A program made the translations under genes and the position numbers. The notes below the pieces were generated by a model. It saw only the letters and a program-made list of their open reading frames with translations. It was not told the DNA's origin and ran no database searches. This document shows, in pieces, positions 1 to 52,034 of a stretch of DNA of 64,000 bases; position 1 is the first letter of the stretch; each line of letters begins with the position of its first letter. Source of the DNA: Clostridia bacterium. GTDB taxonomy: Bacteria; Bacillota_A; Clostridia; Oscillospirales; Acutalibacteraceae. The stretch lies in the NCBI GenBank assembly GCA_017397065.1, contig JAFQKE010000003.1, positions 1-64,000 of the forward strand. Reading direction: 5' to 3'.

Positions 1-3000
1 GTTACCAATGCAGATACCGCATTTACCGATTTTGCAGTAAATGAAACAGCTATTTTCTCCGCAACACCCGCAAACGGCAGTTACTTTGTTGGTTGGTATG
101 ATGAAGAGGGCGCTTTGGTATCCCTTAACGAAACCTACAAAACAGTAGTTACCACCGATACCAAGCTTACCGCCAAATTTGAAAGCGTTGAAAATCTTAT
201 ACAGGTAAGCTTTAATTCTAACGGCGGTACCGATGTGGAAACCATAAGCGGCGGCGCAGATGCTAAAATGAATATGCCTGCTACCCCCACAAAGGACGGA
301 TTCACCTTTGCAGGCTGGTATTTAGATAAGGACTGTACCGTTAAATATCCCTGCAAGGTGTTTCCAAAAGAGGATACCACCCTTTACGCTAAATGGATAA
401 ACGGTGTTTATCAGGATTTTGAAAGCTTTACAGTAAGCACAAATAATCCTACAAAATCAGAAGTAGCAGAAGATTTTGCTAATTCTTATTCAGGTACATA
501 CGCTTACAAGGCAACAGGTGACGCTAAAACAGTTTGCCGTGTGGTTGTTCCTCAAACTGCAAGCGGAAAGCTCTCTGCCTTTGCAAATCCCGGAGATAAA
601 ATAACAATCAGCTTTAAATATAAGCTAGTTTCAGGTAGTATGGCTTTCTACCCACATACAGCAACCACAATGAGTAATGCAAGTGCATTGGCAAGCTATA
701 CTACCGCTTCGGGTAGTACAGGTTATGCTAACGGATATGATTATTATAGCACCAAATTTACCACAGTTTCTGATGAATGGCAAACCTTTACCCATACCTA
801 CACATTAAGAAGTCAAAGCTATTTTGACAGTATAGGTGTTGATGCTGAAAAGGCGTTGGGATATACCTTGCTTTACCTTACTGCACAAAGCACAGGAACC
901 GAATTTTATGTAGATGATGTTATGATTTACAAAACAATAGATATTCCCATTAATTATTCTAATGAGGCTGTTCGCTTAGAACCCGTTAATGCGGCTAAGC
1001 CTTTAACTGCCGCTATTCAGGGCGATACAGTTGAATTTAAAGCCCTTTGTGATGCTTCTGTTACACCCACAATAAAATACGGTGAAAATGTGCTTAACTC
1101 TGTGGACGGCGTATATTCCATAACCGTTACAGCTGATGATGCACTTACCGTTACTACCGAAGGTGTAACCGCCGCTCAAAATCATGCTCCCGGTGTGGGC
1201 CTTAATGGTGAAAATCTTACCAAGTATGATGCAGATGTATTTATGAATAAAATCTGGGAGGGCGATACCGTTTACCACGAGGCTGTAATGTTTGTAAACT
1301 CTGTAGACGGTACCGTTCAAACAACAAAACAACTTCTTTATCCTATTGATGATATTATTTCTATCCGTAACCAAAATCTTAACAAGTGGTATGTAAAGGG
1401 TGTTGACTTTAAGGTTGAAGATGGCAAGCTTGTATGGATTGATGGCGGTAAATGCCCCATTTATACACTTCCGCTTGTTGTACCTACCGATGAAAATGAC
1501 CCCTTCTATGACCCTGCTTTAAACTACGGTGGATTTAATTCGGCTTCCGCCTATTACACCCTTGAAGAGGGCGGTGATTTAGGTCTTAAACTTATGGGTG
1601 ACGCCCACCATGAGGACTATACAGTTTATGTTACCTACAAGCATTCCAAAACATGGGACGACTTGGGTGAAGAGGGTTACACCCCCAAAGCACCCGATAA
1701 TCAGTCCTACGATATGCAAAAATTCTATAATAAGCTTGCAACTAATGAGGATGTTAATGTACTTGTTTACGGTGCATCTACTGCAACAGGTTGCGGCGCT
1801 ACAGGTCGTAATTTAAATTATGAGCTTTTCGGCAAAACTCCTGATGAAAACGGTGATTATGAGGTTACTCTAAGAAACGAAAAGGGAACCGGTATTTCTG
1901 CTCCCACCTTTTTTGAACAGGCAACGGCTGAACTGGTTAAGCAATATGGAAATGGCAATAATATAAATTATTATAATATATCTTGCGGTGGTACGGGCGC
2001 TAAATGGGGTGCAGAAAACCTTCAAAGCCGAGTTGCTTTTATGAATAAGTATTATGGTGAAACTATAGTACCCGATATTATTTATATTAAGTTTGCAGGT
2101 AATGATGTAAGAACTACACCCGAAAGCCTTGTAAGTAGCTACACTAGTATGATAAGCCAGTTTAGAGAGCTTTATCCCGATGCTACCATAGTTATGATAT
2201 CAGGTAAAATCAATAACGAAAGATGCTATATTTTCGGCGATAATCGTCAAAATGTTTTGAATCAGGAAAAGGCTCTTACCGAGCTTGCAGATGCTACACC
2301 TAACTGCATTATTGCAAAAACCACATCTGTATGGGCAGAGATAGTAGAATCTAAGGATTGTGAAGACTATCTATCTAACAACATTAACCACGCAAACGAT
2401 TTCTGGGCAAAGACCACCGCAAGCATAATTGTTGCTTCTGCCGAGAAAAAGGAAAATGTAAGTGCAGTTAAGACTGCATATAATAATTCTGCTGCTCTCC
2501 GCTCAGGCGAGGCGAGCACAACCGGCAAAAACGGTCTTAGAATTTACAACGAAATCAAGAATGAATGGATAACCGCTGCAAATATCGTTGAATATGGCTC
2601 TATAGCCGCCTTTGCCTTAAATGCTGAGGGCGAAATCACCCTCCAAAACGGCAAAAAGGGTATTGCCTTTAGCGATGGCACATTTTCTGCTGAAAAATAT
2701 CTGCCTTGGGAGACTAAGGATGGTAGCGTGGTATTCACTTCCTACCTTACCAATATTTCTGATGCCCGTTACGATGATGATATTTTAGTACGTAGCTATG
2801 CAATAGCCGCAGATGGCACAGTTTATTATGGCGAAACGGTGACAATTAGCGTATTTGCTGTTGCTAATGCTGTGGATAATGGTAATACCGCCGATGGTAG
2901 TGAGTCATCAGAAGCGGATAAAAATGCTTTTTATTGCTTTGTGACAGATACAAATGCGGCCGAGTATAAGAGTTGGTGCACCGAAAAAGCTAAGACAATC

Positions 3001-3033
3001 GGCAGCCTATTTACCACAAAATATGGCGTATAA
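1..3033 (+). CDS. Large surface protein with InlB-type repeat and SGNH hydrolase domain (5' partial)
   Basis: The reading frame is open from base 1, so the gene begins before the window; the first start-like codon inside it (TTG at 115) is not the real start. The visible part has about 1010 residues. It holds an InlB B-repeat / Flg_new module (about bases 205-405, ending TTLYAKW). A long beta-rich middle section follows, and then an SGNH/GDSL-type esterase domain. Block I reads YGAST (Ser replaces the GDS context), followed by a Gly block SCGGTG, the block III FAGND, and a His in NNINH near the end. InlB repeats mark surface proteins of Firmicutes, and SGNH domains usually remove acyl groups from carbohydrates. 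The likely role is a cell-surface carbohydrate esterase, but the substrate is unknown. I see no C-terminal sorting signal. Confidence 0.85.
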   Translation, partial: VTNADTAFTDFAVNETAIFSATPANGSYFVGWYDEEGALVSLNETYKTVVTTDTKLTAKFESVENLIQVSFNSNGGTDVETISGGADAKMNMPATPTKDGFTFAGWYLDKDCTVKYPCKVFPKEDTTLYAKWINGVYQDFESFTVSTNNPTKSEVAEDFANSYSGTYAYKATGDAKTVCRVVVPQTASGKLSAFANPGDKITISFKYKLVSGSMAFYPHTATTMSNASALASYTTASGSTGYANGYDYYSTKFTTVSDEWQTFTHTYTLRSQSYFDSIGVDAEKALGYTLLYLTAQSTGTEFYVDDVMIYKTIDIPINYSNEAVRLEPVNAAKPLTAAIQGDTVEFKALCDASVTPTIKYGENVLNSVDGVYSITVTADDALTVTTEGVTAAQNHAPGVGLNGENLTKYDADVFMNKIWEGDTVYHEAVMFVNSVDGTVQTTKQLLYPIDDIISIRNQNLNKWYVKGVDFKVEDGKLVWIDGGKCPIYTLPLVVPTDENDPFYDPALNYGGFNSASAYYTLEEGGDLGLKLMGDAHHEDYTVYVTYKHSKTWDDLGEEGYTPKAPDNQSYDMQKFYNKLATNEDVNVLVYGASTATGCGATGRNLNYELFGKTPDENGDYEVTLRNEKGTGISAPTFFEQATAELVKQYGNGNNINYYNISCGGTGAKWGAENLQSRVAFMNKYYGETIVPDIIYIKFAGNDVRTTPESLVSSYTSMISQFRELYPDATIVMISGKINNERCYIFGDNRQNVLNQEKALTELADATPNCIIAKTTSVWAEIVESKDCEDYLSNNINHANDFWAKTTASIIVASAEKKENVSAVKTAYNNSAALRSGEASTTGKNGLRIYNEIKNEWITAANIVEYGSIAAFALNAEGEITLQNGKKGIAFSDGTFSAEKYLPWETKDGSVVFTSYLTNISDARYDDDILVRSYAIAADGTVYYGETVTISVFAVANAVDNGNTADGSESSEADKNAFYCFVTDTNAAEYKSWCTEKAKTIGSLFTTKYGV

Positions 3034-29436: not shown

Positions 29437-30228
29437 TTACTTCTTCAATTTTTCAACATCTGCTTTGTAATCATCCAATGTTTTTTGTGTCTTTTCAATA
29501 TCATCGCCCCACAATTCGCCCCTCATATCATAATAGAAACTATACACGTCAGAGCGGGTATCATACCAAACCTCATACACATCAGAGCGAGTGTCGTACC
29601 AATTTTCATATTCATCAGAATGAACATCGTACCAGTCTGAGTACGAAGGGGCATCATCAGAATCATCTAATACACCTTCATAAAGTGCATCCTGCATATC
29701 TTTTAGAAGACCGTCGTAAATGCCATCGTTCAAATCATCCGCTGCATCGTCGTAAATGCAATCATTTAACTCATCAAAGGCATCATATTTGTCATCGTTA
29801 GACATATCTGATGTCATAATCATTTCAGCATACTTAACTGCATACTCTTGCAATCTAATACAAGCCTGCTCGGTTTGAGTATTGATTTTTTCATAGAACT
29901 GTTCTACTTTTTCTGCATTCTTAACATAAGCATCGTATGTTGTTATCGTCGCTGATAATGTTTCCCATTCTGAATTCAAAGCATTAACTGTATCTTCTAT
30001 ATCTTTTGTAATAATGCCTTCAAGTTCTTCAATGGTGTTTGCAGATGTATTAGTAGATGGAGTTGTGTCAACATTTGTCTTTCCGTTATCGGTGCTGATG
30101 TCGTCATTGTTATTTGTTGACTGTGTTTGATTGTTTCCTGTGTTTTGTTCGGTCTGTTGATTTTCGCCACAAGCAGATAATGATAGCACCATCATTACCA
30201 CAAGTAGCAATGCAAGCAATTTTTTCAT
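29437..30228 (-). CDS. Lipoprotein with WYDTRSDVYE repeats
   Basis: A 263-residue lipoprotein. The signal peptide ends in the lipobox LSAC with C20. A low-complexity Asn/Gln/Thr/Asp linker (about 21-65) follows, then a mostly helical, acidic region. The C-terminal part has tandem 11-residue units of the form WYDxRSDVYEx (about residues 198-240: WYDVHSDEYEN, WYDTRSDVYEV, WYDTRSDVYSF, then YYDMRGELWGD). I do not recognise a family. The RBS AGGAGG lies directly after the terminator of a structured RNA, so expression probably depends on that leader. Confidence 0.85.
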   Translation of the reverse strand: MKKLLALLLVVMMVLSLSACGENQQTEQNTGNNQTQSTNNNDDISTDNGKTNVDTTPSTNTSANTIEELEGIITKDIEDTVNALNSEWETLSATITTYDAYVKNAEKVEQFYEKINTQTEQACIRLQEYAVKYAEMIMTSDMSNDDKYDAFDELNDCIYDDAADDLNDGIYDGLLKDMQDALYEGVLDDSDDAPSYSDWYDVHSDEYENWYDTRSDVYEVWYDTRSDVYSFYYDMRGELWGDDIEKTQKTLDDYKADVEKLKK

Positions 30229-30245
30229 TTGATTGTCCTCCTAAT

Positions 30246-30409
30246 AAAAAAGTGTGCGCAACCGAAGTTACACACACCGAAAAATGCATAGCTCCAGTTT
30301 GCTACCACACAAAACTTAACGCTTACAACAAGTACGCGAAAAGAGCATGCATTTTTACCAAAATAAAAATACATACTTGTCGAAAGCGTAATATTAAGTT
30401 TTGTGTGGT
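30246..30409 (-). ncRNA. Structured RNA with pseudoknot and terminator, copy A
   Basis: Read on the minus strand, the element opens with a perfect 16-bp helix P1 (ACCACACAAAACTTAA, 30409-30394, with 30319-30304). Inside are P2 ACGCTT/AAGCGT, P3 ACAAGTATG/CGTACTTGT and a hairpin ATTTT-GGTA-AAAAT. The strand after that hairpin, GCATGCTC, can pair with GAGCTATGC (30294-30284) beyond P1, forming a pseudoknot. A terminator GTGTGTGTAAC-TTCG-GTTGCGCACAC with T6 ends it. The same plan with different but paired bases is found at 51787-51999. The gene start lies 17 nt after the U-tract, which suggests an attenuator or riboswitch. I do not recognise the class. Confidence 0.75.
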
Positions 30410-30415
30410 AAAGCC

Positions 30416-30444
30416 ATTATAGCATAATTTTTTGAAAATGTAAA
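30416..30444 (-). promoter_or_regulatory. Promoter of structured RNA copy A
   Basis: On the minus strand TTTACA (30444-30439), 17-nt spacer, TATAAT (30421-30416). Transcription would begin at about 30409, exactly at the first base of P1. Confidence 0.75.
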
Positions 30445-48462: not shown

Positions 48463-48801
48463 ATGAAAAAATTATTTGGATTCCTTCTTGCAGTTTGTTT
48501 AGTGGCTATGTTAGTTGTTACTCCTATCGGTGTTGCAGCTGAAGGTAACGATGTTGACATCGATATGGGCGAAGGCGTTGTTTTCACCCCTGGTGACATC
48601 AATAACGATGGTAACGTTAACCTTAAAGACCTTGTTATGATTGCTCAGTACCAAGTTGGTTGGGAAGTTGAACCCGTAATCGCAGCTCTTGATACTAATG
48701 CCGATGACGTATTCGATTTGGAAGATGTTACTTACTTAGCAAAACATCTCGCAGGTTGGCCAGAAGCTGAAGATCTTAACGCAGACGCTTACGTAGCTTA
48801 A
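48463..48801 (+). CDS. Small secreted dockerin protein
   Basis: A 112-residue exported protein that is little more than a type I dockerin. The signal peptide is residues 1-25 (KKLFGFLLAVCLVAMLVVTPIGVAA). A 17-residue acidic linker follows, then two calcium-loop repeats: D45-NNDGNVNLKDL and D77-TNADDVFDLEDV, each followed by a helix ending in GW. Dockerins normally attach enzymes to cohesins; here no enzyme is attached. No cohesin gene is in the window. It has its own perfect promoter and terminator, so high expression is likely. Confidence 0.88.
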   Translation: MKKLFGFLLAVCLVAMLVVTPIGVAAEGNDVDIDMGEGVVFTPGDINNDGNVNLKDLVMIAQYQVGWEVEPVIAALDTNADDVFDLEDVTYLAKHLAGWPEAEDLNADAYVA

Positions 48802-51045: not shown

Positions 51046-51342
51046 TTAATAAAAAGGAGTTTCCCCTGAAAAACCTGCATCAGGTTTAATTTCTGCTACC
51101 GGGCCAAGGCAGTAATCACAAATGGGCGCCGAGTAAATAGATGATGTAATTTGTGTACACTCACTAATAGAGATACCATTTTTTTCTATTATATCGGCGG
51201 GGCCTGTTAAAGTTGTAGTTGCTGTACCACCGCATTTAACGCATAAACTTTCTGTGTTGACACCATCATCGGTTGTACACCCGACACATAGTAGTGTGGA
51301 AAAGAAAAGCAAACAAGCGGTAAGTGTTAATCTGAAATTCAT
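51046..51342 (-). CDS. Small Cys-rich lipoprotein
   Basis: A 98-residue lipoprotein with signal peptide and lipobox CVGC (C22). The mature part has two Cys pairs, CVKCGG and CDYCLG, spaced about 40 residues apart, as in a zinc ribbon. No family recognised. Its start overlaps the stop of the DUF2500 gene by one base, so the two are made together, downstream of structured RNA copy B. Confidence 0.78.
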   Translation of the reverse strand: MNFRLTLTACLLFFSTLLCVGCTTDDGVNTESLCVKCGGTATTTLTGPADIIEKNGISISECTQITSSIYSAPICDYCLGPVAEIKPDAGFSGETPFY

Positions 51343-51710
51343 TATTGCTCACTCCTATCAAAACTAATAAATCGTTTTCCTTGATATTTAAGTGTGCCAC
51401 AATCACCTTCAACCATAAGTCCAAATGCGTTTTGATTCTTTATAGCCAGTTCAACACGACTGCCGCTTTTTAATTCAAATACAACTGTATTAACCATTAC
51501 AGTTGGGCTTATGGGATTAGGAGAACTTCGTCTTGCAAGGATTTTTACATCCTTCTCTATACTGATTGAACTTGTATCGTTGTCACCATAAATACTGTTT
51601 TTATTGGCTTTACCGACGGCTATTCCTATTGGAAGAGCAACAATAAAAATTATTGCGATAATTAGAAATACAGGCATTAAATTTGCATCTAACATATCAT
51701 TTATTGACAT
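51342..51710 (-). CDS. DUF2500 family membrane protein
   Basis: A 122-residue protein with one membrane helix (about residues 12-33, MPVFLIIAIIFIVALPIGIAVG) and an outer beta-rich domain: VFELKSGSRVELAIKNQNAFGLMVEGDCGTLKYQGKRFISFDR, the DUF2500 signature. Function unknown. GGAGG stands before the start. The structured RNA at 51787-51999 ends 77 nt upstream and probably controls this two-gene unit. Confidence 0.85.
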   Translation of the reverse strand: MSINDMLDANLMPVFLIIAIIFIVALPIGIAVGKANKNSIYGDNDTSSISIEKDVKILARRSSPNPISPTVMVNTVVFELKSGSRVELAIKNQNAFGLMVEGDCGTLKYQGKRFISFDRSEQ

Positions 51711-51786
51711 AATTTTAAACCTCCATTTTTCGGGAAATATAAAATTTTAACCTCCTTTTTAAAATTCTTTTTTATTCTCCCGTAAA

Positions 51787-51999
51787 ATAAAAAGTGCGAC
51801 AACCGAAGTTATCGCACCGAAAAACGCAAACCCCGATTGTCGCTACACAAACTGAAATAGAATTAGGGTATAACTACCATAATCACTTCGTGGGATTTGC
51901 GATTTTACCAAATCTCTAAAAGTGATTATGACAGAAAAAAGGTAGATTATTCCCTAAAATAAAAATACCTCTAATTCTATTTTATTCAGTTTGTGTAGC
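51787..51999 (-). ncRNA. Structured RNA with pseudoknot and terminator, copy B
   Basis: On the minus strand P1 pairs 51998-51971 with 51866-51843 (24 bp with a 4-nt bulge; outer part CTACACAAACTGAA). P2 joins 51955-51941 with 51878-51864. P3 is CATAATCACTT/AAGTGATTATG (perfect 11 bp, 51930-51920 with 51888-51878). The small hairpin GATTT-GGTA-AAATC sits at 51914-51901. The strand CGCAAATCCC (51901-51892) can pair over 10 bp with GGGGTTTGCG (51834-51825). The terminator is GTGCGATAAC-TTCG-GTTGTCGCAC plus T5. It matches copy A (30246-30409) in layout and in the strings TTTTTCGGTG and AACTTCGGTT, while the stems differ by paired changes. Confidence 0.75.
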
Positions 52000-52005
52000 A
52001 TAATT

Positions 52006-52034
52006 ACTATAGCATAAAACAGAATAAAAATCAA
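52006..52034 (-). promoter_or_regulatory. Promoter of structured RNA copy B
   Basis: On the minus strand TTGATT (52034-52029), 17-nt spacer, TATAGT (52011-52006). The start would fall at about 51999, the first base of P1. TTATGCTATA is shared with the promoter of copy A. Confidence 0.75.

Follow-up and report, generated by a model that had tools for sequence, protein, structure and literature searches.

What do two structured RNAs of common design do in front of genes for small exported proteins? In the 64,000-nt stretch of Clostridia DNA analysed here (the window), the original prediction placed two related RNAs, copies A and B, before such genes and argued from paired base changes that selection acts on their structure. 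Our reading, drawn from folding models, is that they are probably 5'-leader transcription attenuators, in which a long-range pseudoknot would mark the off state and an antiterminator the on state.

Copies A and B in the window

Both copies were found on the minus strand where they had been claimed, each with a -10 element, P1, P2/P3, an apical hairpin, both pseudoknot strands and a terminator. Against dinucleotide shuffles the fold of copy B gave z -10.8 and that of copy A z -9.0, and none of 200 shuffles matched in either case. The pseudoknot strands are as earlier quoted, with duplex energies of -18.1 (B) and -17.2 (A) kcal/mol. Copy B does repeat the plan of copy A: the two have a common architecture and are members of a large family, for which we used covariance models R1, built from three copies (A, B and one from the relative RGIG8698), and R2, rebuilt from 83 copies (79 of 91 sources used). 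The match of copy B to R1 had an E value of 1.7e-24, copy B being among R1's own source sequences. The features are listed below.

52006..52034, minus: copy B promoter, -35 TTGATT (52034-52029) and extended -10 TGcTATAGT (52014-52006); sequence, same spacing over 154 copies
51787..52000, minus: copy B leader RNA (long variant), start to U-tract; R1/R2 match 51782-52000, fold
51985..51999, minus: copy B P1 5' strand GCTACACAAACTGAA; fold, covariation
51842..51856, minus: copy B P1 3' strand TTCAGTTTGTGTAGC; fold, covariation
51892..51906, minus: copy B pseudoknot 5' strand AAAATCGCAAATCCC, partly in local hairpin GATTTG/CAAATC too; duplex energies, MFE
51820..51834, minus: copy B pseudoknot 3' strand GGGGTTTGCGTTTTT, its first part also in the predicted antiterminator arm; duplex energies
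51831..51843, minus: copy B predicted antiterminator 5' arm GCGACAATCGGGG, partner 51808-51796; MFE, duplex energies
51793..51818, minus: copy B intrinsic terminator GGTGCGATAAC-TTCG-GTTGTCGCACT, U-tract to 51789
51342..51710, minus: gene after copy B, DUF2500 protein, 122 aa; Pfam PF10694, E 3.4e-13
51046..51342, minus: second gene after copy B, 98 aa, lipoprotein-like start (by eye); no Pfam family at cut-off
30416..30444, minus: copy A promoter, -35 TTTACA and extended -10 TGcTATAAT; sequence
30245..30410, minus: copy A leader RNA, start to U-tract; fold, model match (30240-30410)
30343..30356, minus: copy A pseudoknot 5' strand AAAAATGCATGCTC, first 8 nt also in local hairpin 30372-30364/30357-30349
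30280..30295, minus: copy A pseudoknot 3' strand GGAGCTATGCATTTTT, largely predicted antiterminator arm as well; duplex energies
30251..30278, minus: copy A terminator GGTGTGTGTAAC-TTCG-GTTGCGCACACT
29437..30228, minus: gene after copy A, 263 aa, lipoprotein-like start (by eye); no Pfam family at cut-off

The start codon lies 11 nt past the model match in copy A and 71 nt past it in copy B. Near copy B, the window also encodes a small dockerin-domain protein (48463-48801, Pfam PF00404), which suggests that the host is a fibre-degrading gut bacterium.

Two strings kept in both copies had been taken as single-stranded, and neither is simply that. Within TTTTTCGGTG, the U5 run can pair with a conserved A5 run, lengthening the pseudoknot helix, and the terminator stem has GGTG at its base. 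GTAGC spans the 3' end of P1 and the linker, which pairs in the predicted antiterminator. The window holds a third exact TTTTTCGGTG at 2979-2988 on the minus strand, inside a large ORF on the opposite strand (115-3033, 972 aa) at the start of the window, and R1 has no match at that site. A hairpin had also been named after a GGTA motif. It exists in copy A, but the minimum-energy fold draws it as GTATTTTTAT/GTAAAAATGC with a TTTG loop; copy B has a local hairpin too, formed by GATTTG/CAAATC instead of being the same hairpin as in A. The local hairpins of both copies involve the pseudoknot 5' strand.

Family size, promoter and start codons

Absence of homologues had been set beforehand as grounds for abandoning the structured RNA; homologues proved abundant, and 204 distinct copies were gathered. 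Relatives were located via the window's HisS, the closest being a water-deer colon MAG, RGIG8698 (93% HisS identity), in which a pattern search found a third copy with the shared plan and a different pseudoknot sequence. R1 matched 55 of 150 genomes of RGIG8698's family at E<=1, with a best E below 0.001 in 52. At E<=0.001, and with nine candidates per genome scored, R2 matched at least 81 of 291 genomes sampled from RGIG8698's class. With up to 150 candidates scored in each of five genomes, R2 found 30, 28, 14, 23 and 7 places, one of the 28 being an antisense echo. Among named relatives (33 of 80 HisS loci taken), four of 33 were positive: RGIG8698, Ruminococcaceae RUG14213, Oscillospiraceae SIG653 and Clostridiales ABMPRH_136_1. 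Covariance-model searches found the leader RNA in 5 of 200 genomes of the family of Lachnospiraceae TWA4 and in none of 198 genomes of the class of a Bacilli MAG. One query gave no match in plasmids, and one exact pattern gave none in viral contigs. Copies L218, L219 and L220 lie on human faecal scaffolds MT835845.1, MT837627.1 and MT835503.1, deposited as unverified, unannotated 'Bacteriophage sp.', which may be bacterial contigs.

The 204-copy collection leaves out antisense echoes L100:1563, L120:1170, L205:1560, L288:87 and L256:1904, as does the leader-pair set used below. The first three are left out of the 154-copy promoter set and the first two of the terminator and start-codon-distance tables, the terminator table leaving out L183:2879 too.

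Computed over 154 copies, the promoter stands at a fixed place, with TTG at -34 to -32 (98%, 87% and 79%), TG at -14/-13 (88% and 91%) and a TATAAT-like box at -11 to -6; upstream of the -35 element, A/T richness alone is visible. Within 40 nt past the U-tract, 94 of these copies have a start codon with an SD and an ORF, compared with 230 of 3983 random places. The other 60 lack a qualifying start codon over that distance, and some of them are upstream tandem members with only a promoter behind them. Where a start codon was found it often lies about 20 nt on (79 of 123 sit 15-24 nt past the U-tract). In such copies promoter, leader and terminator immediately precede a gene read in the same sense, the arrangement expected of an attenuator.

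Neighbouring copies lie no more than 400 nt apart in 17 pairs. In eight tandem pairs from three genomes (L227-L234; G406, G427, G207), the upstream copy is followed by a gap of 42-48 nt that holds a promoter only, and several of these gaps are similar to one another. Elsewhere, four tandem copies with a period of about 265 nt occupy L129:969-1942, each gap carrying a promoter and a short similar stretch. A self-contained unit with its own promoter, together with the eight promoter-only gaps, is what one would expect of a discrete trans-acting sRNA of about 165-215 nt, made up of promoter, RNA and terminator, with the gene behind it coincidental or expressed by leakage. We consider this unlikely: the start-codon spacing is tight, and the predicted antiterminator described below, balanced against the terminator, would have no role in a plain sRNA.

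Competing helices

The claim of selection on RNA structure held in alignment A7, in which 104 copies from 100 sources are aligned to R2. Across P1, P2/P3, pseudoknot and terminator, 95.4% of cells hold a standard pair, compared with 36.5-54.6% after sliding by one to three columns and 75.6% after shuffling; in 38 of 46 pairs both partners vary. A7 is fitted to R2 for all these helices except the pseudoknot, which is absent from R2, and its counts describe mainly the short variant because most long-variant copies, like B, are left out.

The pseudoknot is longer than earlier drawn: A5-TGCA pairs with TGC-R-U5 (97.3% of cells) and CTC with GAG (86.6%). As a duplex it averages -15.8 kcal/mol between strands of the same copy and -11.6 kcal/mol when strands are swapped between copies, the best of 2000 permutations reaching -12.83; 75 of 81 copies beat their own swapped mean (81 of the 83 copies were used, two being omitted where the A-run was not located). 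All energies given here are nearest-neighbour estimates, with the pseudoknot scored as a plain duplex that takes no account of the reach past a hairpin of about 30 bp, and the swap and shuffle controls leave the relatedness between copies in place.

Cis pairs being better than swapped ones, each leader appears matched to itself. This bears on trans cross-talk, in which a terminated leader RNA would lend its pseudoknot strands to other nascent leaders. Conserved A5..GCA and TGC..U5 strands, up to 30 places per genome and gene-less tandem copies would all suit such an exchange; set against the advantage of cis pairs, it is the explanation to which we attach least credence.

The 5' strand of the pseudoknot also pairs locally, as GTATTTTTA/TAAAAATGC, in 94.9% of cells, and this hairpin covaries too. 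Columns 96, 177 and 276 read T-G-C in 37 copies, T-A-T in 29 and C-G-C in 24 of the 104, and 96 of the copies satisfy both pairings (75.6 on average after shuffling, 83 at most). In the long variant, to which B belongs, the same pseudoknot strand takes part in a different local hairpin. Support is weak for a small hairpin of the P1 3' strand with the linker: a single column is paired well beyond its shuffles (79 of 83, against a shuffled maximum of 70), unlike the rest.

A new element is predicted from folding: the 3' strand of the pseudoknot would also be an antiterminator arm, pairing with the 5' arm and loop of the terminator. When the terminator was penalised in folding, both its 5' arm (82 of 83 copies) and its 3' arm (77 of 83) paired with the stretch following P1. 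The alternative fold cost a median of 0.6 kcal/mol (range 0.0-8.8) and retained P1 in 82 of 83, and in the example folds inspected U5 lies in the antiterminator loop. Duplexes between the post-P1 stretch and the whole terminator hairpin gave -17.1 kcal/mol in cis, -13.8 when swapped and -9.5 with composition-shuffled arms. An earlier and simpler candidate, the P1 3' strand with the terminator 3' arm (cis -9.66 vs -9.02, permutation p 0.001), was replaced by this fuller one.

By computation, the two states are closely balanced. For the 3' module alone, the difference of antiterminator minus terminator has a median of 0.0 kcal/mol (IQR -2.4 to 1.5); for 57 of 83 copies it does not exceed 3 kcal/mol either way, and for 26 it does. 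With a shuffled arm the median rises to 9.0 kcal/mol and 4 of 83 stay within 3, while another copy's arm gives a median of 3.2 and still falls within 3 in 93 of 245 trials. Copy A has values of -19.0 (terminator) and -17.2 (antiterminator) kcal/mol, and copy B of -16.2 and -22.2. Two diverged copies from Lachnospiraceae, whose terminator loop is different, give -22.3/-22.9 and -14.1/-14.9, so that their states lie within 0.8 kcal/mol.

On the alignment, the predicted antiterminator is paired in 83.2% of cells, compared with 24-59% when slid and 80.2% when shuffled within columns (0 of 500 shuffles reach 83.2%); because so much still pairs after within-column shuffling, alignment support for this helix alone is modest. 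Double-change pairs number 13 against 10.1 in shuffles, and 26 of 500 shuffles reach 13. The tested pairs were themselves taken from these sequences. When the three helices are followed together through columns 176-277-288-327 (pseudoknot, antiterminator, terminator), all three pairings hold in 85 of 104 copies, the shuffled maximum being 69. Taken singly, antiterminator link 277/288 holds in 87 of 104 (81.1 in shuffles, of which 14 of 1000 reach 87) and link 270/296 in 88 (79.5 in shuffles, of which none reach 88), and columns 263/318 fail to pair in 55 of 101. Because the antiterminator arm shares bases with the pseudoknot 3' strand, the two helices would exclude each other; antiterminator and terminator, by computation, are likewise mutually exclusive.

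We propose the following course of events. Transcription would start at about the first base of P1, and the leader would form a long P1-P2-P3 hairpin whose tip carries the A5-TGCA..CTC strand. The stretch after P1, RCAAUCGGAG..UGC-R-UUUUU, would then have two alternative partners. In the off state it would join the tip strand in the long-range pseudoknot (about 14-16 bp as a duplex), and the terminator would fold. In the on state it would instead take the 5' arm and UUCG loop of the terminator into the antiterminator, and RNA polymerase would read into the gene. Holding the tip strand in its local hairpin would favour the antiterminator. From the balance and covariation computed above we infer that these helices govern termination in vivo and that a signal of some kind (a ligand, protein or RNA) chooses the state.

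Were that signal a small molecule sensed directly, the RNA would be an orphan riboswitch, a special case of the attenuator and not an addition to it. The computed architecture agrees: a conserved structured 5' domain is joined, through the pseudoknot strand, to a terminator/antiterminator expression platform. One class before many unrelated genes would also be in keeping, as second-messenger riboswitches show. Against this, only the loop G at column 119 (99%) is near-invariant outside P1 and the switching strands (columns up to 80 being judged from the consensus line), which would leave little for a ligand pocket, and the diverse downstream genes name no metabolite. On these models we put direct sensing appreciably short of an even chance.

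Downstream genes and known systems

The link to exported proteins, first drawn from the two copies in the window, holds more widely: by a crude rule, 74 of 127 proteins encoded downstream appear to be signal- or membrane-anchored, compared with 76 of 350 other ORFs, a background that may include spurious ones. A Pfam scan of 81 of 82 downstream proteins returned 65 families in all, including LRR_5 (11), List_Bact_rpt (4) and dockerin (3). In genomes G427, G391 and G207, 43 of 45 proteins (L297 and L299 left out) gave 20 BspA-type LRR_5 and 10 MazE_antitoxin (AbrB-like) matches at E<=0.001; three MazE-like proteins examined singly fell just below the Pfam cut-off. DUF2500, encoded after copy B, was not found in four relatives by a search that had no positive control, and in the 1.6 kb read behind HisS in RGIG8698 we saw by eye neither the leader RNA nor a DUF2500 ORF. 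A long-variant copy of RGIG8698 (L221:2608-2826) precedes an ORF that by eye resembles type I signal peptidase.

Leader and gene are evolutionarily uncoupled. Among leader pairs with at least 90% identity over at least 130 nt and a CDS behind both, 6 of 9 precede proteins without blastp similarity (1e-3), and at 85% identity or more 23 of 29 do; these pairs share members, locus ends truncate some of the proteins, and at least one ORF (L297) looks spurious. In nine such pairs that were examined, identity downstream of the leader is 0.23-0.42. In the 40 nt upstream of the promoter it is 0.20-0.45 for the eight cross-genome pairs and 0.75 for L291/L294, which come from one genome. For the promoter region itself the values are 0.20-0.71 (seven pairs) and 0.94 (L291/L294 and L232/L297). 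Identity falls off outside the RNA, and the shared block is therefore approximately the transcribed RNA itself in seven of nine pairs. Since leaders that are almost the same stand before genes that are not related, the leader behaves as a portable cassette would; the shared block could be explained by gene conversion, by transfer or by selection on the RNA.

The same dissimilar genes, similarity that stops short of the promoter spacer and gene in seven of nine pairs, and the existence of tandem duplicates would also fit a terminator-bearing mobile or repeat element that sits before genes only as a by-product, as in the 'mobile attenuators' of Naville and Gautheret. The strong constraint on the competing helices and the spacing of promoter and start codon argue against such an element, though they do not strongly exclude it, and we think it very improbable.

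Beyond the attenuator itself, which remains our preferred reading, we tentatively suggest, as something not quite evenly balanced, that gut Clostridia harbour an undescribed type of RNA switch in very large numbers. Promoter and switch would travel together as a portable cassette, spreading without regard to the genes under it, and would place surface-protein and other accessory genes under shared control; the switch might be a riboswitch that answers to a global signal. If the switch works as proposed, gut Clostridia would run a large regulon of BspA-type LRR surface, exported and MazE/AbrB-like genes through one RNA switch, and the signal, once identified, would reveal the cue on which these bacteria remodel their surface. 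By swapping leaders between genes, bacteria could bring new genes under existing control, and the competing helices offer clean mutations for a test.

How does this RNA compare with known systems? Rfam 15 gave no family at cut-off within the window and no match at cut-off on any copy at 20 loci with copies; at E<=10 the matches were weak, the best on a copy being mir-559 on copy A (E 0.01, 25.8 of the 95 bits needed). A 2017 survey reportedly described 224 bacterial motifs. In the portions consulted of open-access papers, including PMC11109978, PMC8632094 and PMC8040213, we recognised none that describes the leader RNA, and an earlier listing is possible.

Skipping-rope RNA (RF02924) also has a pseudoknot, according to the part of PMC7779021 consulted, and occurs in some of the same genomes. 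We rejected membership in that family: the window copies were unlisted even at E 10, and there was no match at cut-off at the 20 loci. Unlike the leader RNA in its location, the RF02924 model scored over cut-off at 12 places in G427, G391 and G207, and none of them overlaps a leader RNA place. Five of these 12 lie about 0.5-0.8 kb from a leader RNA (L241, L242, L243, L244 and L245). At L241, a PBECR2-type nuclease gene stands between the two RNAs and a gene for a MazE/AbrB-like zinc-ribbon protein follows the leader; L242 has similar ORFs and L243 other ones.

Type III toxin-antitoxin systems (ToxI-ToxN) share the layout of promoter, pseudoknotted RNA, terminator and ORF. Unlike in those systems, the genes downstream of the leader are not one toxin family, and no ToxN-like protein is present among the 23 families of the 43 proteins or the 25 listed of the 65 families from the 81. 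The alignment has one hairpin-pseudoknot unit per leader RNA copy.

The 'mobile attenuators' of Enterobacteria and Bacillus are likewise similar 5' terminators before unrelated genes, and in the sections of PMC2965389 consulted their clusters are largely tied to transposable elements, BIMEs and known riboswitches. The leader RNA differs from what is described there in keeping three competing helices, and in Clostridia.

Also close are terminator-type riboswitches and attenuators, which share the 5' leader with its own promoter, the exclusive antiterminator and terminator predicted here, the close gene and the several genes per class. In contrast to these, the leader RNA matches no Rfam family at cut-off, its predicted antiterminator arm is at the same time a strand of a long-range pseudoknot, and it occupies up to 30 places in a genome, with leader and gene evolving apart.
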